DNA of 42,847 nt from Chryseobacterium gleum (lineage in GTDB: Bacteria; Bacteroidota; Bacteroidia; UBA10329): the NCBI GenBank assembly GCA_945903645.1, contig CAMDOM010000025.1:1-42847 (forward strand), read 5' to 3'. The position numbers and the translations under genes were made by a program. Positions 8,724 through 42,348 of the stretch are shown here, in pieces (the first letter of the stretch is position 1; each line of letters begins with the position of its first letter). The notes beneath the pieces were generated by a model. It worked only from the letters and a program-made list of their open reading frames with translations. It had not been told where the DNA came from and ran no database searches.

Positions 8724-9482
8724 CTATTTTTTGTCCTCCTCCTGTTCCATGTGAGGATTCAGTTTTACGGGGTTTATCTCCGATTTCTTCTTCAAGCGTA
8801 GATTTATTAGTTCTACGGTTAGTGAGAAGAACACTGCGAAATAGATGTATCCCTTTGGTACTTCTTCGTGAAAGCCTTCGAGCATCAGCATAAATCCGAT
8901 GAGGATAAGGAAAGAAAGTGCCAATATCTGTAGTGATGGATTCTTGTTAATGAATCGACTTATCATGCCAGAAAAAGCCATCATTATACCTAGGGCGATG
9001 ACCACAGCAATAATCATAACCAGCACTTCATCTACCAACCCAACAGCAGTAAGAATACTATCGAACGAGAAAATAATGTCGAGTACAATGATTTGAGCAA
9101 TTACACTACCTACGCTTTTGGCGCTATGTTCTTTAACTACTTCGGCCTTGCCTTGCATTTTGTTGCTAATTTCTATAGTGCTTTTATACAACAAGAAAAC
9201 ACCACCTAGGGCCAAAATAATATCGCGACCGCTGAGGGCAAACGTGCCCATGGTAATTAGAGGTTGGGTGAAGGTAACGATGTAGGAAATGCCCAGTAGC
9301 AGTGCAATACGGAAAAACAGCGCGAAAATTAGTCCGATATTCCTTGCTTTAGCTTGCTGACTTTCGGGCAATTTGTTGGATACAATGGAAATAAAAATGA
9401 TGTTGTCGATGCCCAACACAACCTCCAAAAAAGTTAGTGTAAGCAGGGCAATCCACGTTTCAGAATGCAAGAAAATTTCCAT
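8724..9482 (-). CDS. TerC-family integral membrane protein
   Basis: A 252-residue membrane protein with about seven helices and the TerC signature near the N-terminus (TFLEVVLGIDNIIFISIV) plus a second acidic helix (IIVLDIIFSFDSILTAVGL). These paired Asp-rich helices are typical of TerC/Alx/YkoY proteins, several of which export Mn2+ or take part in metal homeostasis and tellurite resistance; the substrate here is unknown. The frame extends 30 codons upstream, but MEIFLHSETWIALL at 9482 is the family-like start. A possible TAATTTCG -7 box lies at 9518-9525 on the same strand. It is convergent with glpK (55 nt between stops). Confidence 0.88.
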   Translation of the reverse strand: MEIFLHSETWIALLTLTFLEVVLGIDNIIFISIVSNKLPESQQAKARNIGLIFALFFRIALLLGISYIVTFTQPLITMGTFALSGRDIILALGGVFLLYKSTIEISNKMQGKAEVVKEHSAKSVGSVIAQIIVLDIIFSFDSILTAVGLVDEVLVMIIAVVIALGIMMAFSGMISRFINKNPSLQILALSFLILIGFMLMLEGFHEEVPKGYIYFAVFFSLTVELINLRLKKKSEINPVKLNPHMEQEEDKK

Positions 9483-9642
9483 GATAGTTGGGCTCGAATA
9501 GGTTTTGGAAGCCGCCACGAAATTAGAACGGAACAGGAAAGGATTTATATCCGTCTTACTTTCAATTCTCACCAGCAGCAGAATAGTTGTAAAACGTCAG
9601 AATACCGCTAAAAGCGTATGCTTAGCCACGCTACCAAAAGCC

Positions 9643-9650
9643 TAAATTTG
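9643..9650 (+). promoter_or_regulatory. Desaturase-hydrolase promoter -7 box (TAAATTTG)
   Basis: An exact TAnnTTTG match ending 12 nt before the ATG at 9663, implying a nearly leaderless mRNA. It lies inside the longer open frame from 9618, which argues against the longer start. Confidence 0.55.
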
Positions 9651-9662
9651 CCCCCTATCGCC

Positions 9663-10715
9663 ATGGCAGTATTAGCAGACATTCGTATCACAGACCCTGT
9701 TTACGTTAAGCAGGAACAGTTTAGCATCCTCGACCGTTGGCTGCTCCAGTTTATTCGCGAAGAGCGTGATTTGGTTTTTCCAAAATTGATGCTGCGCATA
9801 ATGGTGGTGCTATTACCGATGGTTGTGGTACTCTATTGGCCAGGGATGTTTAACTGGTGGATAGCGGCCATTTATTTACCCATAAACTGGGCTATTTTCC
9901 TTGGGCCATTCATTTTGATGTTGCATTGCACCAGCCATCGCCCGCTTTTCAAAAGGGAATACGATTGGATGAACAAGATTATTCCATGGTTTTTGGGGCC
10001 ATTGTTTGGAGAAACACCCGAAACCTATTTTGCCCATCATATGGGAATGCATCATCCCGAAAACAATTTGAAGGACGATTTGAGCACTACCATGCCCTAT
10101 CAGCGAGATAGTTTTAGAGGCTTTATGCATTATTTCTTGTCGTTTTTCTTCTTAGGAATAAAAGACCTTTACTATTACCTCACACGCAAGAATCGCTTGA
10201 AGTTGAGGAGAAACATCACGTGGGGAGAGGGGTTGTGGTACGTAAGCGTAATTCTTTTATCACTGGTCAATTCCAAAGCCACGTTGGTTGTGCTCATTTT
10301 GCCGCTTGTCTTTGCGCGTTTTATGATGATGGCAGGCAATTGGGGCCAACATGCTTTTATCGATGCCGATACACCTGCCAACTGTTATCGCAACAGCATA
10401 ACTTGTGTGAATACGGTTTACAACCATAAAGCGTTTAACGATGGCTACCATATCGTGCACCATTTGAAGCCTGCCTTGCACTACACCGATATGGCGCAGG
10501 AGTTTATAGACAATCGCCAAGATTATGTGCGAGAGAGGGCTATCGTTTTTCAAGGCATCGATTTTTTTGGCGTATGGTTTCTTCTTATGACCAAAAACTA
10601 CAAAGCACTCGCCAAGCGCTACGTTAACTTGGAGGCAACACCCAAAAGCGAAGCCGACATTATTGCGCTGCTAAAGCAACGCACCGCTCGCATCACTGCG
10701 GAAAAGATGATTTGA
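9663..10715 (+). CDS. Membrane fatty-acid desaturase family protein
   Basis: The 350-residue protein has four or so membrane helices and the three histidine clusters of membrane desaturases/hydroxylases: HCTSH (88-92), HHMGMHH (125-131) and HIVHH (263-267), with an extra NWGQHAF at 226-232. These bind a di-iron centre that uses O2 to introduce a double bond or hydroxyl in a lipid acyl chain. The exact substrate cannot be inferred. The start at 9663 is preferred because a perfect promoter box lies immediately upstream. The final codons overlap the next gene by 4 nt (TTGA), pointing to translational coupling. Confidence 0.85.
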   Translation: MAVLADIRITDPVYVKQEQFSILDRWLLQFIREERDLVFPKLMLRIMVVLLPMVVVLYWPGMFNWWIAAIYLPINWAIFLGPFILMLHCTSHRPLFKREYDWMNKIIPWFLGPLFGETPETYFAHHMGMHHPENNLKDDLSTTMPYQRDSFRGFMHYFLSFFFLGIKDLYYYLTRKNRLKLRRNITWGEGLWYVSVILLSLVNSKATLVVLILPLVFARFMMMAGNWGQHAFIDADTPANCYRNSITCVNTVYNHKAFNDGYHIVHHLKPALHYTDMAQEFIDNRQDYVRERAIVFQGIDFFGVWFLLMTKNYKALAKRYVNLEATPKSEADIIALLKQRTARITAEKMI

Positions 10716-31196: not shown

Positions 31197-34100
31197 TTAT
31201 CGAACGATTGTTATAGGTCCAGTAAATGGCTGCTCAAAGTTTTCAGAGCGAATCACGTAATAGTAAGTGCCTACAGGCAGGTCGTTGCCATCATAGCGTC
31301 CATCCCATGGAATAGGATAGCCTTCGGCAGATTGCCATAGCATTTGTCCCCAACGGTTGTAAATCTCTACTACAGCATCACTAAACAATTCGATGTTGTC
31401 GATAATCCACGTATCGTTTATACCGTCACCATTTGGAGTAACGCCATCAGGGAATTTGATTCCTGGCACCACCTCCACCAGCACGCTATCCATATTGGTA
31501 CAGCCATTCTCATCGGTTACAGTAACGTAATACATAGTTGTTTCAAGCGGAGATGCAAACGGGTTGGTAATAGTAGAGTCGCTAAGCGCATCGCCAGGAG
31601 TCCAAGTGTATGTCCACTCGGTTACTACCCCAAGCGCATTCAATCCTATAGTTCCGCCTGTTGGAATGGTTACATCCTCTCCACCATCTACTGGAGGCAC
31701 ATTATACATGGTAACCAGTACTGAATCGGTATCCACACAATTTCCAATGCTTACTGTAAGCAAATAAGTAGTATTCACAATTGGATTGGCCGTAGGGTTG
31801 GCAGCGGTAGCATCGCTTAGCGACTCAGCTGGCGACCATTGGTAAGTGCCGCCACCAGCTCCATTTAGGGTAAGTGAACTTCCAACACAAAGATTGAGGT
31901 CGTCACCTGCTTGGGCTTCAATGTTTACCAAAGTTCCGATACTGTAGGAATCAACAATTGAACATCCAGTAGCGTCTGTAATGGTTACCGCGTAAGTTCC
32001 AAAGAAAGCGTTGTTCAAATCTTCGGTGGTTGCTCCTGTAGGATTCCATTGGAAACTGTAAGTTCCTACTCCACCCGCTGCTGTTAGATTGATAGACCCG
32101 TTGGCTACGTTGCTACATGTAGAAGCGCTGGTAGTAGCATTTGAAACAAGGGCAGGAGGGCCGAGTACAGTTACACTGCTTTGCGTTACGCATTCGTTGG
32201 CATCAATAACTGTTACGGTGTATGTACCAACGCACAATGCTGTAGCTGTAGCTCCAGTCTGATTCGATGGGTCGTTCCACAAGAAAGTGTAAGGCGGTGT
32301 TCCTCCATTTGGAATGGCAGTTGCTGTTCCATCACAAGCGCCACCGCAAGTTTCATCAACTGCCGTAGCACTTGATGTTAACAAGGCTGGCTCGGTAATT
32401 ACAACCGTTGCTTGGGTAGAACAGGCAGGTGCTTGGGCGTCAACCACAGTTACAGTGTAATTGCCTGGGCAAAGTCCTGCTACCACTTGTGTAGTCTGAT
32501 TAAACTGGTCGTTCCAGAAATACTGGTACGGTCCTACACCGCCAGTTGCGAATACAGAAGCTGTACCATCGCAATCGCCATTGCAACTTACTGAAGTGAA
32601 AATTGGCACAGTGGCCACCAACACATTATCGTCATTAATTGTGACAGAAGCATTTGCAGTACATCCAATTCCATCCGTAATGGTTACATCATAGGTGCCT
32701 TCGCAAAGACCAGTAGCTGTTGCTGAAGTTTGCCCATCAGCCCATAAATAGGTGAAAGGCGGAGTGCCACCAGAACCTGTTACGGTAGCTTGTCCGTTAC
32801 AACTTCCACTACATTGAATTTGACTTGTAGCGGTGATGTTTGCATTAAGAACAGGTGGCTCGGTAAGATTAATGTCAACCGTGACCGTACAAAGGTTAGC
32901 GTCTGTAACGGTTACCGAATAAAGACCAGCACATAGGTTGGTAATGGAGCTACCCAAACCAAAGTTTGACCAAAGGATAGCATAAGGAGCTGTTCCACCT
33001 GTTATTGTAACAGTTGCAGAACCGTCACACTCCCCTCCGCAGCTTGGATTGACTACCGAAACAGTAGCGTCCAAAACTGGTGGCTCAATGATGTCTACCG
33101 AAGTTGTTGCAGTACATCCATTGGCATCTGTAACTACAACCGTGTATGTTCCAGCACACAGACCCGCTGCGGCAGCTGTTGTTTGCGCATTAGCATCATT
33201 CCATAAGTAGGTATATGGAGAGGTTCCTCCTTGCGCAATTGCTGTGGCAATACCATCGCATTCGCCTCCGCAGGTAATGTTTGTGGCAACACCAGCAACA
33301 ACTAATGGAAGAGGTTCAGTAACGATAACCGCAGTTGTACTTGTGCAACCGTTGGCATCCGTTACTATTACATTGTAAATGCCAGGGCACAAATCTGTAA
33401 CCGTGTCATTCTGAGTAGCAGCCAAATCCGTCCACTGATAGCTATAAGGACCTGTTCCACCAGTAGCAGATGCATAGGCTTCACCATCGCAATCTCCCGT
33501 ACAACTAACGCCTTGAGCACTGGCTGTAATAACAATAGCTGCTGGTTCACTTATCGTTATCTGCGATGTGTTGGTGCAACCAGCAGCATCTGTTGCAGTA
33601 ACAGTATATGTTCCTGCACACAATCCAGTCACGTTTGCAGAGGTAGCAGCAGCAGGGTCGTCCCATAAGTAAGTGAACCCTCCCGCACCACCAGTGGCAT
33701 TGGCAGAAGCTTCGCCATCACACACACCAAAGCAAGATGCATCAACTGTTGTTGTGGCTATTACGATTGGAGTAGGTTCGTCTATTGTAACAGAAACAGT
33801 AGCAGTACAACCATTTGCATCTGTGATAGTAGCGGTGTAATCTCCAGCGCAAAGTCCAGTTGCCGTGGCTAAACTACCTCCAGAAGGTGACCATGAAACG
33901 GTGTATGGAAGCGTTCCTCCAGAAGCTACAACGGTCACAGCTCCATCGCACACTTCAGCACAAGAAGCATTGGTAATCAACGGCAAACTAACTGAGATTT
34001 CGGTAGGCTCTGTAACGGTTACTTGCGTTACGGTAACGCAACCATTCGCATCTGTGATAGATGCGCTCACTAAGCCCGCGCAAAGGCCAGTTGCCGTTCC

Positions 34101-37100
34101 TGTAGTTTGCCCTGCAGGGTCGTCCCAAAGGATGGAGTATGGGGCTAATCCGCCAGTAATTGTTACTGTGGCCGTTCCATCGCATGTTCCGTTGCAAGAA
34201 GCTTCTGTAGAAACGCCTGTTAATAGTGGCCCGTCAATATTGTTGACAGGAATAACAATTATGGCAGAGCATCCATTACCATCTGTTACGGTAACGGTGT
34301 ATGTTCCAGCCACAAGGTTAGCAGCTGTTGCTGCAGAGGATACATTTGGAACCCATGAATAAGTGTATGGTCCACCATCGCCACCTGATGGATTCACGGT
34401 GATTGCACCATCAGAATTTCCGCATGTTGCAGGAGTAGAAGTATATGCTGGAACAATTTGAGCTGGCTCAGCAATCACAACGGGCTGAATGAAAATACAT
34501 CCAAGGTCATCTATTATTTGAACGTTGTAAGTTCCTGCACAAAGGCCAGTTACACTTGTAGTTGTTTGACCTCCTGGAACCCATAAGTAGGTATAAGGTG
34601 CCGTGCCGCCTAAAGGAGTTACGGTGCCTTCTCCATCGCAGGTTCCGAAGCAGGATGCATCAGCAACTACAACTGTAGCGCTTGTTGCGCCTCCATCATT
34701 ATTTACTGGAATAATGAAGTTTTGAACACACCCGAATTGGTCTATTACATCAACGTTGTAAACACCTGCGCACAAACCTGTAATTGTAGCAGTGGTTTGA
34801 CCATCGCCCCAGAGATATGTGTATGGTTGCACTCCACCTGTTGGACTAACTGTAGCTTGTCCATCGCACTGCCCGCAATTGGCGTTAACAACGGCAGAAT
34901 TTGCTGTTATTTCTAAAGGTTGGAAGATATTTACGGTGGCGGTGGTAACACATCCGCTCGCATCGGTAACATCAACATTATATATTCCTGGGCAAAGGTT
35001 TACTGCAGTAATTGTGGTTTGTCCATTCGGATCATTCCATTGATAGGAATATGGAAATGTACCGCCAGTGGTAAACACTGTGGACGTGGCATCGCAAATA
35101 CCAAAGCAATCTGGGTCGTTAGCAGTGGTAGTAGCGGTAAGCGTTATCGGTTGCGCGATAGTTACAGAAGAAACGGATACACATCCATTCGCATCGGTAA
35201 CGGTTACTTCAAACGTTCCAGCGCAAAGACCAGTGGCTGTTGCTGTAGTTTGCGCCAAGGGATCGTTCCATAAATAAGTATATGGCGCTGTGCCCCCAGA
35301 TGCTGTTACTGTGGCAGTACCGTCACAATTGCCATTACAAGTGGGGTTTACTTGAGTTGTAATAGAAGAAGTCAAGCCATTTGGTCCAGCAATGACTACT
35401 GAACCGGTTTGAGTACAACCATCTGCGTCAGTAGCAGTGATGATGTATGTGCTTGCGCAAAGTCCTGTGGCTGTTAACGTTGTTTGGTTTGCTGGATCGT
35501 TCCAAGAAACTGTATACGGGCCATTTCCTCCAGTTACTGTGGCTGTGGCTTCACCAATACATGTGCCGCTACATTCTAAATCGATAATGTTAGAAAATGT
35601 GATAACAATTGGAGTGGGTTGGGTAATGTTTCCCGAAACACTAAAAGTACAATTGTTTGCATCGGTAACTGTAACGGTGTAGTTGCCAGCACACAATCCA
35701 GTGGCTGTAGCTGTAGTTTGCCCTGCTGGGTCATTCCACAAATACGTGAATGGAGCTGTTCCTGTTTGAACGTTAGCAGTTGCCGTACCGTCACATACTC
35801 CGTTGCACGAAGCATCGGTACTTGAAACGGTGACAGTTAAATTAGGCGTGTCGACAATCGTACCCGCAGCCGCATTGGTGCAACCGTTGGCGTCTGTTAC
35901 TATTACATTGTAGGTTCCTGCACAAAGGCCAGTGGCTGTAGCTGTGGTTTGCCCTGCTGGGTCATCCCACAAATAGCTGTAAGGAGCTGTACCATTCGAA
36001 GCGGCTGCGGTAATAGTACCATTGCACAAACCACATGTAGCATCTGTAGGGGTTGTTGTAATTGCTATTGGAGCTGGTTCGTTAACCGTAGCAATCAAAT
36101 CACTTCCACCCGATCCGCCAAATGTGAGCGACCAATCGAAGATAAATCCATCATCAATGCTCAAGTTATCTGTTACAGTAATGGTCCAGTTTCCATTAAG
36201 CGGACAACCTATAAAACCGTTGAATGATTGCGTAGGCGTATATGTGCCGGGAGTCATGGAATTGTTGGGTAAATTCCCTGCTGTTACCCAGTTACCTAGC
36301 GCATTTTCTTGAAGAATGGTGCCAAATGTTGCTGTTTCTGAGAAACAATATTCAGCACCCGTTCCTGGAATTCCATTTGATCCAGCATCATTCGCACCAC
36401 CTAAATATGTTCCTGTTCCTCCTGGATATTCTTTTAGAACAACGGTTTGCCCATTCGGACATGTGAGCGTCATCTCTAAATCTCCCAAATAGGATTGCTC
36501 CATGTTGATACAGATGTTTTGCAAATCCGTTCCTGTGGTGATTGTGCCTCCCGCAGGAAATCCTGTTATAGCTACCGAGGTGTTGTAAGAAACACCATTT
36601 CCATCAGGCAACGCAAGGGTTCCACCTGCAAACGAACCGCCAAGCGTGATTTCGCTTGCTGTACAACCATTGGCATCTGTAACCACTACCGAATAATCGC
36701 CTGCGGGAAGGTTTGATATATCCTCTGTTGTTTCTCCTCCAGGCGACCACACGTATGTATAGGGCGCAGTGCCTCCAGTTACGGTCATGTCAATAGAACC
36801 ATCGTTAGCGCCATTACATGTAACATCCGTTACCGCTAGGGTGATTACGATTGGATTCGGCTCATTAATCGTTACGGTTTGCTGTTGCGAACACCCAATA
36901 TTATCAGTTACAACAAAGGTGTAGGTTCCAGCACACAAGCCCGATTCTGACAATCCAGTACCACCTGTTTCTTGCCATAAGTAGGAGAAAGGAGCATTGG
37001 CGCCAGTTACCGTAGCAGTTGCAGTTCCATCACAAGTTCCATTGCAACTCATGTCTGTTGCGGTAACCGAAAGTTGAATTTGAATATCGCTTATAGTGAA

Positions 37101-38360
37101 CTGAGCCGTATTAGTGCATCCATTCGCATCAGTTACCAATACTTGATAGTTGCCACCACAAAGCCCCGAAACGCTAGAACCACTTCCTACGTTTGGCGTC
37201 CAAGTGTATGAATACGGTCCAGTGCCACCAACCACAGCAACACTCGCTTGTCCATCACAAATCCCATTACACGTTGCATCAACAGTGGTAGGAGTAATAA
37301 CTATTGGAGCAAGCTGATTTATCACAAAATTGGCGGTGCCTTGGCAGCCATTGCTATCGGTAACTGTTACCGTGTAAGAACCAGGCGCTCTGCCAGTGAT
37401 GTTTTGAGTTACGATATTTCCAGGTTGCCAATTGAACGTAAACGGACCAACTCCACCTGTAAACGAAATAGTAACTGCTCCATTGTTCGCTCCTGCGCAA
37501 GAAACTGGTGTCACAATCCCAGTAATAGCAATTGGAGCAGGTTCGCTGAGGATAACCCCAGGCGGTGTATATGTACATCCCGTAGCATCGGTAATGGTCA
37601 ATATGTAAGTACCGGAACCCACTCCACTTATATTCTGGGTAGTTTGACCCGATGACCAAAGAAATGTATAAGGTGCTGTACCTCCAACTAACCCAGTTGT
37701 GGCAATACTTCCATTCAATCCACCATTACACGTTGGATTCGTTCCTGTTAATGTGGCAGCCCAATCTGGCGATTGAGTTATGGTATATGGAACAACTTCC
37801 GAACAGCCATTCGCATCGCTTACGGTAACGTTATAGGTACCTGAATTCAATCCAGAAACCGCAGAAGTGGCAGATGCAAAGGGCAACCACGAATAAGTGT
37901 AGGGTGCCAATCCTCCAGAAACACTTACTGAAGCGCCACCATCATTGCTGGTTGGACAGGTTTCGTTTGTTGCAGTAACCACAATGTTAAACGGTGCTGG
38001 GTCATTTACCGTGGCAAACGATATTGCAGCTGGGCAACTTCCTCCCAATCCATCTTGGCCAACAACAATGATTTGATAATTCGAAATACCTGCACCCAAA
38101 CCAGTGAAGGTGTAAGTAGTTGTGGGCTGCGGTCCAGAAGAAATGAACAACGGTCCATTAAATAATTGATACGTATAGTCAGGCGAACCGCCTGTAACTG
38201 TGATAGTAATTGTTCCATTACTTGCCCCGTTGCAAGTAACATCAGTGGCCGTCACAGTTTGAATTGTAACTGGGCATTGAGCCTTAGAAAATTCAGCGGT
38301 TAATAAGGTTGAGGTAGCTGCAAAGGCAAGAATTGCAAGTAGACGTATTGGTCTCATCAT
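31197..38360 (-). CDS. Giant SprB-repeat surface protein with gliding-motility-type C-terminal domain
   Basis: A protein of about 2,387 residues. In order it contains a signal peptide (LLAILAFAATSTLL, cleaved near SKAQ), then seven SprB repeats, an embedded P-domain (about residues 572-747), 18 more SprB repeats, two PKD/Ig-like units (WTYTWTPGDALSD and similar), and a gliding-motility-associated C-terminal domain (VTPNGDGINDTWIIDNIELF, then VEIYNRWGQMLWQS). SprB-type proteins are T9SS-exported cell-surface adhesins moved by the gliding machinery. Each repeat is about 75-80 residues with the core T-C-N-G-x-x-D-G, GG-x-x-PY-x-Y-x-W, G-x-C-x-G-x-Y and D-A-N-G-C. Start at the paired ATGs near 38360. 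The PorP/SprF gene follows. Repeats may cause assembly or length errors. I do not call it sprB itself because many paralogues exist. Confidence 0.93.
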   Translation of the reverse strand: MMRPIRLLAILAFAATSTLLTAEFSKAQCPVTIQTVTATDVTCNGASNGTITITVTGGSPDYTYQLFNGPLFISSGPQPTTTYTFTGLGAGISNYQIIVVGQDGLGGSCPAAISFATVNDPAPFNIVVTATNETCPTSNDGGASVSVSGGLAPYTYSWLPFASATSAVSGLNSGTYNVTVSDANGCSEVVPYTITQSPDWAATLTGTNPTCNGGLNGSIATTGLVGGTAPYTFLWSSGQTTQNISGVGSGTYILTITDATGCTYTPPGVILSEPAPIAITGIVTPVSCAGANNGAVTISFTGGVGPFTFNWQPGNIVTQNITGRAPGSYTVTVTDSNGCQGTANFVINQLAPIVITPTTVDATCNGICDGQASVAVVGGTGPYSYTWTPNVGSGSSVSGLCGGNYQVLVTDANGCTNTAQFTISDIQIQLSVTATDMSCNGTCDGTATATVTGANAPFSYLWQETGGTGLSESGLCAGTYTFVVTDNIGCSQQQTVTINEPNPIVITLAVTDVTCNGANDGSIDMTVTGGTAPYTYVWSPGGETTEDISNLPAGDYSVVVTDANGCTASEITLGGSFAGGTLALPDGNGVSYNTSVAITGFPAGGTITTGTDLQNICINMEQSYLGDLEMTLTCPNGQTVVLKEYPGGTGTYLGGANDAGSNGIPGTGAEYCFSETATFGTILQENALGNWVTAGNLPNNSMTPGTYTPTQSFNGFIGCPLNGNWTITVTDNLSIDDGFIFDWSLTFGGSGGSDLIATVNEPAPIAITTTPTDATCGLCNGTITAAASNGTAPYSYLWDDPAGQTTATATGLCAGTYNVIVTDANGCTNAAAGTIVDTPNLTVTVSSTDASCNGVCDGTATANVQTGTAPFTYLWNDPAGQTTATATGLCAGNYTVTVTDANNCTFSVSGNITQPTPIVITFSNIIDLECSGTCIGEATATVTGGNGPYTVSWNDPANQTTLTATGLCASTYIITATDADGCTQTGSVVIAGPNGLTSSITTQVNPTCNGNCDGTATVTASGGTAPYTYLWNDPLAQTTATATGLCAGTFEVTVTDANGCVSVSSVTIAQPITLTATTTANDPDCFGICDATSTVFTTGGTFPYSYQWNDPNGQTTITAVNLCPGIYNVDVTDASGCVTTATVNIFQPLEITANSAVVNANCGQCDGQATVSPTGGVQPYTYLWGDGQTTATITGLCAGVYNVDVIDQFGCVQNFIIPVNNDGGATSATVVVADASCFGTCDGEGTVTPLGGTAPYTYLWVPGGQTTTSVTGLCAGTYNVQIIDDLGCIFIQPVVIAEPAQIVPAYTSTPATCGNSDGAITVNPSGGDGGPYTYSWVPNVSSAATAANLVAGTYTVTVTDGNGCSAIIVIPVNNIDGPLLTGVSTEASCNGTCDGTATVTITGGLAPYSILWDDPAGQTTGTATGLCAGLVSASITDANGCVTVTQVTVTEPTEISVSLPLITNASCAEVCDGAVTVVASGGTLPYTVSWSPSGGSLATATGLCAGDYTATITDANGCTATVSVTIDEPTPIVIATTTVDASCFGVCDGEASANATGGAGGFTYLWDDPAAATSANVTGLCAGTYTVTATDAAGCTNTSQITISEPAAIVITASAQGVSCTGDCDGEAYASATGGTGPYSYQWTDLAATQNDTVTDLCPGIYNVIVTDANGCTSTTAVIVTEPLPLVVAGVATNITCGGECDGIATAIAQGGTSPYTYLWNDANAQTTAAAAGLCAGTYTVVVTDANGCTATTSVDIIEPPVLDATVSVVNPSCGGECDGSATVTITGGTAPYAILWSNFGLGSSITNLCAGLYSVTVTDANLCTVTVDINLTEPPVLNANITATSQIQCSGSCNGQATVTGSGGTPPFTYLWADGQTSATATGLCEGTYDVTITDGIGCTANASVTINDDNVLVATVPIFTSVSCNGDCDGTASVFATGGVGPYQYFWNDQFNQTTQVVAGLCPGNYTVTVVDAQAPACSTQATVVITEPALLTSSATAVDETCGGACDGTATAIPNGGTPPYTFLWNDPSNQTGATATALCVGTYTVTVIDANECVTQSSVTVLGPPALVSNATTSASTCSNVANGSINLTAAGGVGTYSFQWNPTGATTEDLNNAFFGTYAVTITDATGCSIVDSYSIGTLVNIEAQAGDDLNLCVGSSLTLNGAGGGTYQWSPAESLSDATAANPTANPIVNTTYLLTVSIGNCVDTDSVLVTMYNVPPVDGGEDVTIPTGGTIGLNALGVVTEWTYTWTPGDALSDSTITNPFASPLETTMYYVTVTDENGCTNMDSVLVEVVPGIKFPDGVTPNGDGINDTWIIDNIELFSDAVVEIYNRWGQMLWQSAEGYPIPWDGRYDGNDLPVGTYYYVIRSENFEQPFTGPITIVR
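31940..38275 (-). repeat. Array of 25 SprB repeats
   Basis: About 25 units of roughly 225-240 nt, interrupted once by the P-domain. I counted repeats by the conserved Cys in T-C-x-G and the Trp ending PYxYxW. Eighteen units have an extra Cys pair and seven do not (units 1-4, 7, 15, 25). Units 8-24 are more alike at DNA level than units 1-7 (GCCTGTACTTTGC-like segments recur), suggesting later duplications in the C-terminal half. Boundaries are approximate. Confidence 0.85.
36118..36645 (-). other. P-domain (proprotein convertase P/Homo B-like) inside the repeat array
   Basis: The part of the giant protein between repeats 7 and 8. It has NTSVAITGFPAGGTITTGTD, LQNICINMEQSYLGDLEMTL, CPNGQTVVLKEYPGGTGTYL and, near the end, GNWTITVTDNLSIDDGFIFD followed by WSLTFGG. 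The pattern (Gly-Asp-Leu, then Asn/Gly-Trp-Thr, then Asp-Gly and Trp-Ser-Leu) is that of P-domains, beta-sandwiches usually next to subtilisin proteases. No protease domain is present here. Confidence 0.75.
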
Positions 38361-38688
38361 GACGATGGGTTGGGTTTTGTACACTTAGTTTAGAATAGGA
38401 TTCAATCCCCCTATTTTCGGGGGGTTAAAATACAGTTTTTGGCATATTAGACAACGTCTTGACTTTCGTAAGTTTAACAAGCGATTTATGAATATTTATG
38501 GTGGATTAAATTAGCGCTTGAGCGTCATTTTCCCTATCGAAAAAAGTCTATCATGTTGTTTCTACGTTTTACAATTGCTACAAACCAAAACACCTTTTTG
38601 ACTTCAAATCTGATGTGATAAAAATCATATCCCCTATTTGGCGCAGTTTACATTTTTGGTCGCCATCTTTGGCCGTCAACCCAGTTGC
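38361..38688. other. 328-bp divergent intergenic region between the SprB-type gene and the HTTM gene
   Basis: AT-rich, with no ORF I can support. A small stem CCCCC-TATTTTC-GGGGG (38407-38423) lies 47 nt upstream of the SprB-type start, within its likely 5' leader; a similar run on the other strand has no T-tract, so I do not call it a terminator. I see no exact TAnnTTTG for the minus gene; TATTTTAA at about 38428-38435 is only a weak match. For the plus gene CATCTTTG near 38664-38671 is a weak match. Confidence 0.5.
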
Positions 38689-40479
38689 ATGAAACGTATC
38701 TATTCCATACTCGAAGGATTTTTATCTATTGACCTACGCACTTTAGCTTTTGTTCGTTTCCTAACTGGATTTGTGGTCATAATGGACCTCATTTCTAGAG
38801 CAATGGATTTAACAGCGCTATACACCGATGCAGGTGTGCTACCAAGAACTTTGTTGTTGAGTGGATCAAATAATTGGTCGTTTTCGGTTTACTCTATAAG
38901 CGGTTCCTACTTATTTGTTTCAGCCATGTTTATCATGGCTGGCGTTTTTGCGTTGCTAATGAGTTTTGGATATCGCACCCGGTTAATGACCATCCTATCC
39001 TGGATTATGCTCATGTCACTTCAAAACCGCAATCCACTAATCTGCTATGGGGGCGATTCGGTCATTCGAATGATGCTGTTTTGGGGAATGTTTGTGCCTT
39101 GGGGGGCCAAATATTCTATTGATAGTTTAAGGTATGGGTTTAATAAACTGTCGGGGCACCTTCCAAAGAAGATTTTTACCATGGGTTCGATTGGGATGTG
39201 CCTTCAGGTACTTTATATCTACTTTTTTACAGCGCTTTTTAAAAACGGTCCTGAATGGCACTCGGAAGGCACTGCAGTTTATTTTGCTATCGCTATAGAT
39301 GAGTTGGCTTCGCGATTCAATTTCCTTGTTCGAGCACTTCCTTTAGACGCACTGAAAGGAATGACTTGGGCAGTACTCGCTTGGGAATGGGTTGGGCCAA
39401 TTTTGGTGGCTTGGCCCAATTGGAAAATTCGCGTATTCGGATTGCTTGGATTTTTCACGCTTCAATTGGGATTTTTAACCTTTATGGTACTCGGTTTATT
39501 CCCCGTGTTTAGCACCTTAGCCATTTTGGTTTTTGTTCCTTCTGAGATTTGGGACAAACTTGAAGCACGGTTCATTGGTGGGCGTCAACGCGGTCTGCGC
39601 ATGTATTACGACCCAAATTGCGGTTTTTGTCAGCACATGGTTGTTGCTTTAAACCGCTTTCTACTTTTCGATTCCGCACAGGCCTTACCAGCAAGTGATG
39701 ATTCGACCATACATGACGAACTCAGAAAGAACAATTCATGGATTGTCAAAGATTCTGAAGGAAATACATACATGAAAGGCAAAGCTTTGATTGCCGTATT
39801 CAATCATTCACCGATTTTTTGGCCCATTGGTAAACTTCTTAGATTATTCACCCCAATATTAGATTGGACCTATGGCCGCCTTGCCGTAAGTCGACCAGAG
39901 TGGCCCGCATTTCAGTATTTCCCGAACGGAATTATCTCTCGTTATTCAGTTTCTCAATCCTTGCCAGTGATGGTTTTAGCGCTGTGGTGCTTGCTGTATG
40001 TTACGCTTTTCAATTTTCATAAGTTTGACGAGAAGGTACTTCCGGTTCCTAAATCGCTCATTTGGGTTTCTGGAATTTTCAAAGTAGATCAAAACTGGGC
40101 CATGTTTGCTCCTGCGCCCTATAGGGCTGATGGCTGGTTCGTTATTCCTGCACAATTAGCCAACGGAGACTCTGTAGATATATTTAAGAAAGGCGCTCCA
40201 ATAAATTGGGATAGGCCCGAGCGCATTGCCACAACATATAGAAACACCCGATGGAGCAAGTACTTACGCACCATTCGACAACCTAAATATAAGATGGCTA
40301 TGAAACACTATGTGGCCTGGCTATGGCGCGAATGGGACAACAATCACCCCGAAGAACAGCGCTTGAAAGAGTTCGAATTTGTGTTTGTTATGGAAACCAA
40401 TATGGAGAATTGGGAAACCGCTCCACCTAGACGAATGTCTCTTTGGTCGCAGGATTGTAGAAAAATTTCAGATTTCTGA
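38689..40479 (+). CDS. HTTM-domain (vitamin K-dependent gamma-carboxylase-like) membrane protein fused to a DCC thiol-redox domain
   Basis: A 596-residue protein. Residues about 10-290 contain several membrane helices of the HTTM type (LRTLAFVRFLTGFVVIMDL; MLFWGMFVPWGAKYSID), a family distantly related to gamma-glutamyl carboxylase. Residues about 303-400 carry the DCC/DUF393 signature MYYDPNCGFCQ with CxxC at 311/314. A second short membrane region (MVLALWCLLYVTLFNF) and a soluble Trp/Arg-rich C-terminus (KVDQNWAMFAPAPYRADGWF) follow. It may be a membrane enzyme with an attached thiol-disulphide partner; substrate unknown. The ATG at 38689 is preferred over an upstream TTG, which only adds an unconvincing N-terminus. 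Confidence 0.82.
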   Translation: MKRIYSILEGFLSIDLRTLAFVRFLTGFVVIMDLISRAMDLTALYTDAGVLPRTLLLSGSNNWSFSVYSISGSYLFVSAMFIMAGVFALLMSFGYRTRLMTILSWIMLMSLQNRNPLICYGGDSVIRMMLFWGMFVPWGAKYSIDSLRYGFNKLSGHLPKKIFTMGSIGMCLQVLYIYFFTALFKNGPEWHSEGTAVYFAIAIDELASRFNFLVRALPLDALKGMTWAVLAWEWVGPILVAWPNWKIRVFGLLGFFTLQLGFLTFMVLGLFPVFSTLAILVFVPSEIWDKLEARFIGGRQRGLRMYYDPNCGFCQHMVVALNRFLLFDSAQALPASDDSTIHDELRKNNSWIVKDSEGNTYMKGKALIAVFNHSPIFWPIGKLLRLFTPILDWTYGRLAVSRPEWPAFQYFPNGIISRYSVSQSLPVMVLALWCLLYVTLFNFHKFDEKVLPVPKSLIWVSGIFKVDQNWAMFAPAPYRADGWFVIPAQLANGDSVDIFKKGAPINWDRPERIATTYRNTRWSKYLRTIRQPKYKMAMKHYVAWLWREWDNNHPEEQRLKEFEFVFVMETNMENWETAPPRRMSLWSQDCRKISDF

Positions 40480-40497
40480 TGTTGAAAGAAATTTTTT

Positions 40498-40505
40498 TAC
40501 CTTCG
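40498..40505 (+). promoter_or_regulatory. -7 box (TACCTTCG) before the ADIS-repeat gene
   Basis: A one-base variant of TAnnTTTG, 31 nt before the ATG. The same octamer precedes leuS on the other strand. Confidence 0.45.
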
Positions 40506-40536
40506 AACCCTTCTTAAATCCTTCATTCAACAGAAC

Positions 40537-41331
40537 ATGAAAAAAAATTACTTGGTTGGCGGTTTCACCGCAATTGCATTTTTCTCGGTAGTAGGTTATG
40601 ACTACTACACAGGAAACATCTCTAATTTCGCAAAGAAAGTAGTTGAAAATGGTCCATCTGGCATTGCTGACGTTTCTGGCATACAGGATGTAAACCGTGG
40701 AGGCGTTGCTCCACTTGGTGCTATTGCTGATATCTCTGCTTTAGCAGATATTTCTGCTGCTGCTACTGCTGATATTTCTGCTGCTGCCACTGCTGACATT
40801 AGTGCTCTAGCCGATATTTCTGCCGCTGCTACTGCTGATATTTCTGCCGCTGCTACCGCAGACATCTCTGGCTTAGCAACTGCCGATATTGCTGCTGCTG
40901 CCGACCTTTTGGCTAACTCTGATTTACTTGGTGGTATTCAAGACGTTGGTGGTCTTTTGGCTAACTCTGATTTGCTTGGTGGTCTTCAAGATATTTCTGC
41001 TACTGCTGACATTTCTGCTACTGCTGATATTTCTGCCGCTGGTACTGGAATTGAAGATGATTTCCGTGCTGGTAAGGTGAGTGTTTATAACTTCCCAAAC
41101 CCTGCTAACGACATCACCAACTTCCGTTTTCAACTAAATGAGGCTGCTTTGGTTCGTATCGTATTGTATGGTTCAAACGGTCAAATGATTGATATGGCTT
41201 TGAACAAGCAATACGGTGCTGGTGAGTTTATTTACTCGTACGATGTGAGTGCTTTGACTCCTGGAACCTACGTTTATACCTATCAATTGGGAAACAACTT
41301 GCCAATGACACGCAAGTTGATTATCAAATAA
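40537..41331 (+). CDS. Secreted T9SS cargo protein with Ala-Asp-Ile-Ser repeat and type A sorting domain
   Basis: A 264-residue protein in three parts. Residues 1-25 hold a hydrophobic helix (LVGGFTAIAFFSVVG), probably a signal peptide without a clear cleavage site. Residues 42-169 are low-complexity: 17 Asp residues, most in A-D-I-S or Q-D-[IV] units spaced 6 or 8 apart (ADISAL, ADISAAAT), plus a duplicated 16-residue LLANSDLLGG unit. Residues 180-264 form a T9SS type A sorting domain (VYNFPNPANDITNF, then GTYVYTYQLG), which should target it to the outer membrane or medium. No known domain matches the repeat. It lacks cysteine. Even spacing suggests a beta-solenoid-like or calcium-binding structure, but this is inference. 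Confidence 0.9.
   Translation: MKKNYLVGGFTAIAFFSVVGYDYYTGNISNFAKKVVENGPSGIADVSGIQDVNRGGVAPLGAIADISALADISAAATADISAAATADISALADISAAATADISAAATADISGLATADIAAAADLLANSDLLGGIQDVGGLLANSDLLGGLQDISATADISATADISAAGTGIEDDFRAGKVSVYNFPNPANDITNFRFQLNEAALVRIVLYGSNGQMIDMALNKQYGAGEFIYSYDVSALTPGTYVYTYQLGNNLPMTRKLIIK
40660..41043 (+). repeat. ADIS repeat region with nested 66-nt and 48-nt DNA duplications
   Basis: Within the protein repeat, a 66-nt unit (encoding ADISAL then ADISAAAT twice) occurs twice in a row, and a 48-nt unit beginning CTTTTGGCTAACTCTGATTT occurs at 40906 and 40954. The copies differ at few bases, pointing to recent duplication or slippage. Confidence 0.85.
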
Positions 41332-41349: not shown

Positions 41350-41387
41350 AAAAAGGGCTGAATCTCTTGGAGATTCAGCCCTTTTTT
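41350..41387 (+). terminator. Rho-independent terminator after the ADIS-repeat gene
   Basis: AAAAAGGGCTGAATCTC, loop TTG, GAGATTCAGCCC and a run of six T: a perfect GC-containing stem of 12 bp or more with an A-tract before and a T-tract after, 19 nt downstream of the stop. Confidence 0.92.
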
Positions 41388-41517
41388 GTGGAATAAATTA
41401 CCCTCCACCCAACTGGTTGTATTAGCAACTGGCTGGGTTTGGCATGACAATCCTCATATTACATGGAGAAACACTGGTCTATCATTACGGCTCAAATCAA
41501 CACCTAGAACTTAACCC

Positions 41518-42348
41518 ATAAAAAAAACACTACTGTTCACAATTACCATTCTAGGCTTTGGAGCATATAGTGCCCTTGGCCAAATTTATTACCCAGTCGC
41601 TTCTGCACTACCTGCGGGTTCTGTTGGTCAAGTATATGCTGGTCAGACCATTAATTTCACTGTGCCTGCTACAGCCACAGTAAGCGGTGCCGTAGTTGCA
41701 AACGCGGTTGCTGCTCAATTTCCTCAATTCTCTGCGTTTACTGGTGCAATTAGTGGACAAACCTTTCCATTAACCATTACTTCTACAGCGTTGGCGGTTG
41801 AAGGATTACCTTCTGGCATTAATGCTACTTGCAGTGCTACATCATGTACATTTTTAGCTGGCGTTTCCGGAAATATCTCTCTTGCGGGAACCCCAACTTC
41901 AGGAGGAAATTTTACAGTTAACATTACCTCGCTTACTTCAGGTGAAGCAGATTTGTCGGCATATATTGCTGCTCTTCCAATAAACCCTGGCATTCCTGGG
42001 GTAATTGCAATACCACAACCTGTGCCTACAGTTTTAGATGAGACTGGATACACCATGGTTGTTTCTGGAACTAATGGAATTGAAGAAAATAATGACATTT
42101 TCAGTCTGAGTTTTTTCCCAAATCCAACTGTAAATACTTCTACTTTAGCGATAAATTCTACTATTAATGGAGTGGCAAATGTTGAGATTTACAACGTTAC
42201 TGGATTGCTGATAAGCTCATACTCTGAGGCTATACGCATTGGGTCAAATAGGGTGAATATCGATATGGGAACGTTGCCTACCGGAATTTACATGGTAAAG
42301 ACATTTATCAATGGATGTAAAGCATTAGTTCGTATTCAGAAGAACTAA
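41518..42348 (+). CDS. T9SS cargo protein with Ig-like fold, apparent ATA start
   Basis: The reading frame encodes a typical signal peptide KKTLLFTITILGFGAYSALGQ directly after an ATA codon at 41518, with an in-frame TAA two codons upstream; no ATG, GTG or TTG precedes the signal. I therefore annotate ATA as start (an ATG-to-ATA change), giving 276 residues. The mature part (PVASALPAGSVGQVYAGQTI) and the piece with CSATSCTF then SGNISLAGTPTSGG resemble putative Ig-like domains of Bacteroidota surface proteins. The end (FFPNPTVNTSTL through IYMVKTFINGCKALVRIQKN) is a T9SS type A sorting domain. A later GTG at 41662 would lose the signal peptide. It may be a pseudogene if ATA is not used. Confidence 0.75.
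   Translation: MKKTLLFTITILGFGAYSALGQIYYPVASALPAGSVGQVYAGQTINFTVPATATVSGAVVANAVAAQFPQFSAFTGAISGQTFPLTITSTALAVEGLPSGINATCSATSCTFLAGVSGNISLAGTPTSGGNFTVNITSLTSGEADLSAYIAALPINPGIPGVIAIPQPVPTVLDETGYTMVVSGTNGIEENNDIFSLSFFPNPTVNTSTLAINSTINGVANVEIYNVTGLLISSYSEAIRIGSNRVNIDMGTLPTGIYMVKTFINGCKALVRIQKN

Follow-up and report, generated by a model that had tools for sequence, protein, structure and literature searches.

The gene found at positions 40537-41331 of the window, that is, of the whole 42,847-nucleotide stretch analysed here, raises the question of what role a short tandem repeat with regularly spaced aspartates may have in a protein sent to the cell surface. This gene, like every feature of the window located below unless another orientation is indicated, lies on the forward strand; it encodes 264 amino acids (P0001), contains no internal stop and is matched by an ortholog over its full length. 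An antisense ORF at 40605-40865 is the mirror of the repeat and was rejected as a gene. The C-terminal residues 186-264 (41092-41328) match the T9SS type A sorting domain above the curated cut-offs of both Pfam PF18962 (E 1.3e-8, 35.4 bits, cut-off 27) and TIGR04183 (30.9 bits, cut-off 23), and AlphaFold2 builds them as a beta-sandwich with pLDDT around 70-80, the sole part of the protein to be modelled fairly. The same genome encodes the PorU sortase (model NF033707, 1373 bits, cut-off 420), and the sorting domain and sortase together support the T9SS-exported product that the original prediction had proposed. The hydrophobic N-terminus described there was also confirmed on the translated sequence (residues 1-22, 40537-40602); it may be an uncleaved anchor or a signal peptide, and shows neither a lipobox nor an obvious cleavage site.

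Between these two ends lies the Asp-periodic region (residues 42-169, 40660-41043, boundaries as first drawn), which includes a core tandem array at residues 64-165 (40726-41031). A recount gave the same 17 aspartates as reported earlier, at residues 45, 51, 65, 71, 79, 87, 93, 101, 109, 117, 123, 129, 136, 145, 152, 158 and 164, with successive spacings of 6, 14, 6, 8, 8, 6, 8, 8, 8, 6, 6, 7, 9, 7, 6 and 6. Twelve of the 16 spacings are thus 6 or 8, where at least ten had been claimed. The exceptions 7, 9 and 7 do fall in a duplicated LLANSDLLGG stretch, and a further spacing of 14 had gone unmentioned. At least 12 spacings of 6 or 8 were obtained in none of 100,000 composition-preserving shuffles (best shuffle 10). 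Shuffling is a weak null model where a tandem repeat is concerned, and the ortholog described below is the better control. No family had been recognised for the repeat, and searches of Pfam, NCBIfam and PHROGs likewise gave no match within it. Nor was any RTX or other calcium-binding beta-roll matched in Pfam or NCBIfam, and the units of six and eight residues lack the GGxGxDxxx nonapeptide.

Searching the eight other genus genomes and 395 genomes of the class brought up a sole ortholog, with 60% identity, in a genome of the same genus (G007, the source of loci L035/L044; MAG Tobar13m-G24, Flavobacteriales). When the N-terminal 61 residues were compared with the 395 class genomes no other ortholog was found, the next match (E 0.008) being unconvincing, and a scan of genome contigs returned the G007 MAG again and nothing else. 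Both ends are well kept between the two proteins, with 30 of 36 residues identical at the N-terminal end, where the hydrophobic character is maintained and pS is 0.64 against a pN of 0.09, and 70 of 96 at the C-terminal end. The repeat of the ortholog consists of 16 successive perfect hexads of the form L-G/L-A-N-S/A-D, in which LGANSD and LLANSD alternate and are followed by LGANAD, so that its 17 aspartates stand at every sixth residue without exception. Both arrays keep a small residue in front of Asp and an aliphatic one behind it, and they share the regular spacing and the acidic character, the net charge over 127 residues being about -16 in the window protein and -22 in the ortholog. It had been suggested to look for homologues with other unit numbers: in the one ortholog found, the regular Asp spacing is kept and the unit sequence is wholly different. 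The repeat unit was thus exchanged wholesale, its Asp rhythm and negative charge being retained.

The codons of the repeat allow a recent origin by slippage to be rejected, as synonymous codons vary among units of identical peptide sequence. In a rough Nei-Gojobori count that treats the units as independent sequences, the octads of the window protein gave pS 0.50 against pN 0.08, its two 22-residue super-units differ at 0.48 (48%) of synonymous and 0.04 (4%) of nonsynonymous sites, and in the ortholog the synonymous-site differences reach 44% among five LLANSD units and 55% among six LGANSD units. Even TCC/AGC serine exchanges occur between identical units of the ortholog. Since identical peptide units are written with many synonymous codons, the repeat is held by selection at the protein level and not by DNA slippage; the codon pattern thus shows that the peptide sequence itself is selected for.

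The original prediction missed a conserved partner gene, and the most informative aspect of the finding is outside the repeat gene itself. Directly upstream, on the same strand, a gene at 38689-40479 encodes a 596-residue HTTM-DCC membrane protein, HTTM being the GGCX/SdpB/LMF1 superfamily; the ORF tool placed its start at a TTG at 38638, whereas the alignment favours the ATG at 38689. The gap between both genes is 57 bp in the window (40480-40536, no stable hairpin) and 33 bp in G007, where the pair has the same gene order, again on one strand, and the HTTM-DCC copy is 68% identical. A strong terminator-like hairpin at 41350-41386, 3' of the repeat gene, with 17 bp including A/U pairs, a 3-nt loop and a U tract (-25.9 kcal/mol, z -5.6), closes the two-gene unit, and the two genes are probably co-transcribed. 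Both are present in the window's genome (G000) and in G007 and both are absent from the other seven of nine genus genomes, several of which are incomplete. Beside the pair, the window contains no positional counterpart of any other gene from the 16-kb contig of G007, the only further match being a SprB-like repeat protein, through its repeats. Across the two orthologous pairs known, the gene pair is thus conserved in non-syntenic surroundings.

The SprB-like protein of the window, encoded on the reverse strand at 31197-38384, has 2395 residues with many similar repeats and a gliding-type C-terminus; its smaller relative (963 aa) on the G007 contig lies two genes from the pair.

The relation of the HTTM-DCC protein to characterised families is detectable through its homologs. 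A profile of 20 of them, searched against PDB chains, found only GGCX, with a borderline E of 0.02, and aligned the lysine that is invariant in all 20 (K185, 39241-39243) with K218, the catalytic base of human GGCX. PF05090 (HTTM) matches four of the 20 homologs (best 1.4e-7), the window protein itself having no match; the LMF1 Pfam model matches some homologs (4.1e-9) and the SdpB model matches the G007 copy (8e-8). The HTTM-DCC protein thus probably shares a membrane core with GGCX/HTTM (PF05090), SdpB (TIGR04033) and the lipase maturation factor (PF06762). It differs from GGCX, to which its similarity is borderline, in carrying an inserted DCC1-like thiol-disulfide oxidoreductase domain (39604-39906, PF04134, E 1.1e-6), with a conserved CxxC within the motif DPNCGFC. 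Standalone DCC genes are found less than 2 kb from four HTTM genes, which fits the fusion seen in the window. Our literature search returned nothing that deals with the HTTM-DCC proteins of Bacteroidota or with repeats of this kind.

Relatives of the HTTM protein occur in 28 of the 395 class genomes, and 26 loci outside the genus were read individually, or 28 with the two genus loci. Ten of these 28 loci, in seven families, have an exported, short, low-complexity repeat protein as partner. Outside the genus, eight of the 26 loci have an adjacent exported low-complexity protein (L042, L075, L081, L082, L083, L087, L089 and L090), mostly with Thr/Ser/Gly-rich repeats and mostly without Asp or Glu. 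The partner at L077 and at nine loci of family f41 is a lipoprotein whose repeat or linker is shorter and which also has a domain unmatched in Pfam, most f41 partners being a different lipoprotein with just a short linker. Eight of these 26 Bacteroidia loci, all three from f10 among them, show no such neighbour, and the pairing predicted for another class of the phylum was found at none of three HTTM loci. An automatic count of exported low-complexity proteins gave 8 of 46 adjacent same-strand ORFs compared with 2 of 303 other ORFs (p 1.9e-6). Its eight cases include the two genus pairs from which the idea arose, and relatedness among the genomes means that they do not count as independent; the L081 partner was missed through an overlapping antisense ORF and that of L082 was booked as non-adjacent through a spurious small ORF. 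From gene order, the pairing of HTTM and repeat-protein genes is recurrent in Bacteroidia, and it is not universal there.

Two details of these loci deserve mention in their own right. The f41 lipoprotein, of about 182 residues, is conserved (L076 6122-6670, L078 8536-9084, L091 7590-8144, L093 6244-6777 and others), with a TGTG.NPN linker and a domain of about 110 residues without Pfam match, and is encoded directly upstream of the HTTM gene. At L081, tandem Ser/Thr/Gly-repeat lipoproteins (8935-9294 and 9588-10073) both lie upstream of one HTTM gene.

We tentatively favour the reading that the exported repeat protein is matured by HTTM-DCC as its dedicated enzyme. The repeat protein would be a small T9SS surface protein composed of a membrane or signal segment at the N-terminus, a strongly acidic, short-period and probably flexible repeat of 100-125 residues, and the type A sorting domain. 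HTTM-DCC, an inner-membrane protein, would be the first product of the two-gene unit and the repeat protein the second. The target of the former would be the repeat, or the adjoining conserved segment, at the inner membrane and prior to T9SS export, the HTTM part with the conserved lysine providing a GGCX-like base and the DCC part serving as thiol redox partner. The sorting domain would then be cut by PorU and the protein attached to the cell surface, where the matured acidic repeat, once displayed, may serve as a spacer with ion-binding or adhesive properties. The enzyme-substrate relation, its reaction and the final role of the repeat protein are what we infer from this arrangement. In favour of this reading we count the conserved pair and its joint presence or absence across the genus, the neighbours of HTTM relatives in other Bacteroidia, the superfamily matches, the nearby standalone DCC genes, PorU and the protein-level constraint; against it stand the loci lacking such a partner, the borderline GGCX similarity, the absence of a Pfam HTTM match in the window protein and the small number of orthologous pairs. 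As a T9SS type A cargo (PF18962/TIGR04183), the protein is typical in its sorting domain and in the presence of PorU in the genome; unlike other such cargo, its cargo part is a short acidic tandem repeat lacking any catalytic or adhesin domain, its N-terminal segment has no obvious cleavage site and its gene is paired with HTTM-DCC.

Precedents for HTTM proteins acting on ribosomally made substrates come from other systems. SdpB, of the SDP toxin, is a precedent for such a role. HTTM proteins are widespread in bacteria, with substrates known or proposed for few of them only (SdpC, linaridins). GrmL of grisemycin is presumably also an HTTM protein. It has been called a potential peptide epimerase (PMC10373908), and for linaridin clusters an HTTM protein has been put forward as a putative enzyme of maturation (PMC9927463). 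Our locus resembles linaridin clusters with HTTM proteins (e.g. CrdG) in that an HTTM protein is encoded beside a ribosomally made candidate substrate; unlike in those clusters, this candidate is a 264-aa T9SS surface protein and not a cleaved peptide antibiotic, and no other linaridin genes were seen. A GGCX-like reaction would need a quinone, and the futalosine-type menaquinone route is present in G000, with two PF02621 matches above cut-off (MqnA/MqnD-type proteins), which was counted for the maturation model; of the classical Men pathway, the menA model gave no match in that genome and menB stayed below its cut-off. In contrast with GGCX, the candidate substrate here offers Asp in place of Glu; in most HTTM relatives the partner has neither. 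Since Asp and Glu are largely missing from these other partner repeats, carboxylation of Glu or Asp cannot be the shared reaction. A broader proposal, in which the HTTM proteins of Bacteroidia form a maturation-enzyme family for exported low-complexity repeat proteins and the DCC-fused form of this branch modifies the regularly spaced aspartates of a T9SS-displayed repeat (e.g. to beta-carboxyaspartate, or by epimerization), is considered improbable.

If true, an Asp-modifying HTTM-DCC protein would represent a surface-protein modification system not yet described. The gene pair offers an obvious, highly repetitive and surface-displayed candidate substrate, so that the question of HTTM substrates becomes testable. 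The repeat is of note in itself, given that the two orthologs have exchanged nearly every other residue of the unit and kept the Asp rhythm and the charge.

Among other explanations, a plain acidic stalk, flexible and leading from the membrane segment to the sorting domain, is only a little less likely than the maturation model; HTTM-DCC would then have another job involving no modification. Such a stalk would suit the low pLDDT of the repeat in both orthologs, their wholly different units and the net negative charge of both arrays. Nevertheless, identical units have been kept despite near-saturated synonymous change, which is stricter than a generic linker needs, the HTTM-DCC/repeat pair is conserved outside any synteny, and HTTM genes repeatedly adjoin repeat proteins at the loci described above.

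It seems unlikely, on the other hand, that the repeat is a beta-solenoid, either a left-handed hexapeptide helix or similar, with Asp ladders for Ca2+ or surface binding, although its protein-level constraint, the uniform spacing of six in the ortholog the partial fit of the L-G-A-N-S-D hexads to the hexapeptide pattern and the sub-threshold Hexapep and LpxD matches of the ortholog, given below, would agree with one. The original prediction had placed Asp on one face of a beta structure; AlphaFold2, run on both orthologs, built no solenoid, drawing residues 64-127 of the window protein as a low-confidence helix (pLDDT around 55, two-sequence alignment) and the perfect hexads of the ortholog, modelled alone, as coil (pLDDT around 42). 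As AlphaFold2 tends to over-predict solenoids for perfect repeats (PMC11795689) and built none here, this is evidence against a solenoid, short of excluding it. In phmmer searches of the PDB the window protein matched the internalin-type LRR 4r58 (E 8.5e-11 for the whole sequence, about 4e-4 per stretch) and the ortholog the LpxD hexapeptides (E 0.037). The orthologous arrays thus point to different solenoid types and cannot be both, so these weak resemblances are read as matches of composition; neither protein passes the respective curated model. An internalin-type LRR was rejected, as the position expected for Asn and two of those for Leu are taken by Ala, Pfam yields no LRR match and the ortholog has a period of 6/12. 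A hexapeptide beta-helix was also rejected: the ortholog reaches 14.7 bits against the PF00132 cut-off of 27 (E 0.026), and the window protein, which has no Pfam match in its repeat, gives none to this model up to E 10. Besides, the units of 6, 8, 7 and 9 residues in the window protein, resembling the 22-residue internalin LRR, do not fit a coil of 18 residues. That the repeat forms an Ala-rich helix or coiled rod is very improbable in spite of the single helix drawn by AlphaFold2, as Asp and the hydrophobic residues show no 3.6-residue periodicity and the Asn/Ser/Gly-rich ortholog was modelled as coil.

A second T9SS cargo gene follows at 41512-42348. In frame upstream of its first GTG, a textbook signal peptide is encoded (IKKTLLFTITILGFGAYSALGQ); downstream of the in-frame TAA (41512-41514) this reading could start only at an ATA, 41518-41520, which would represent either a non-standard start or a sequencing error.
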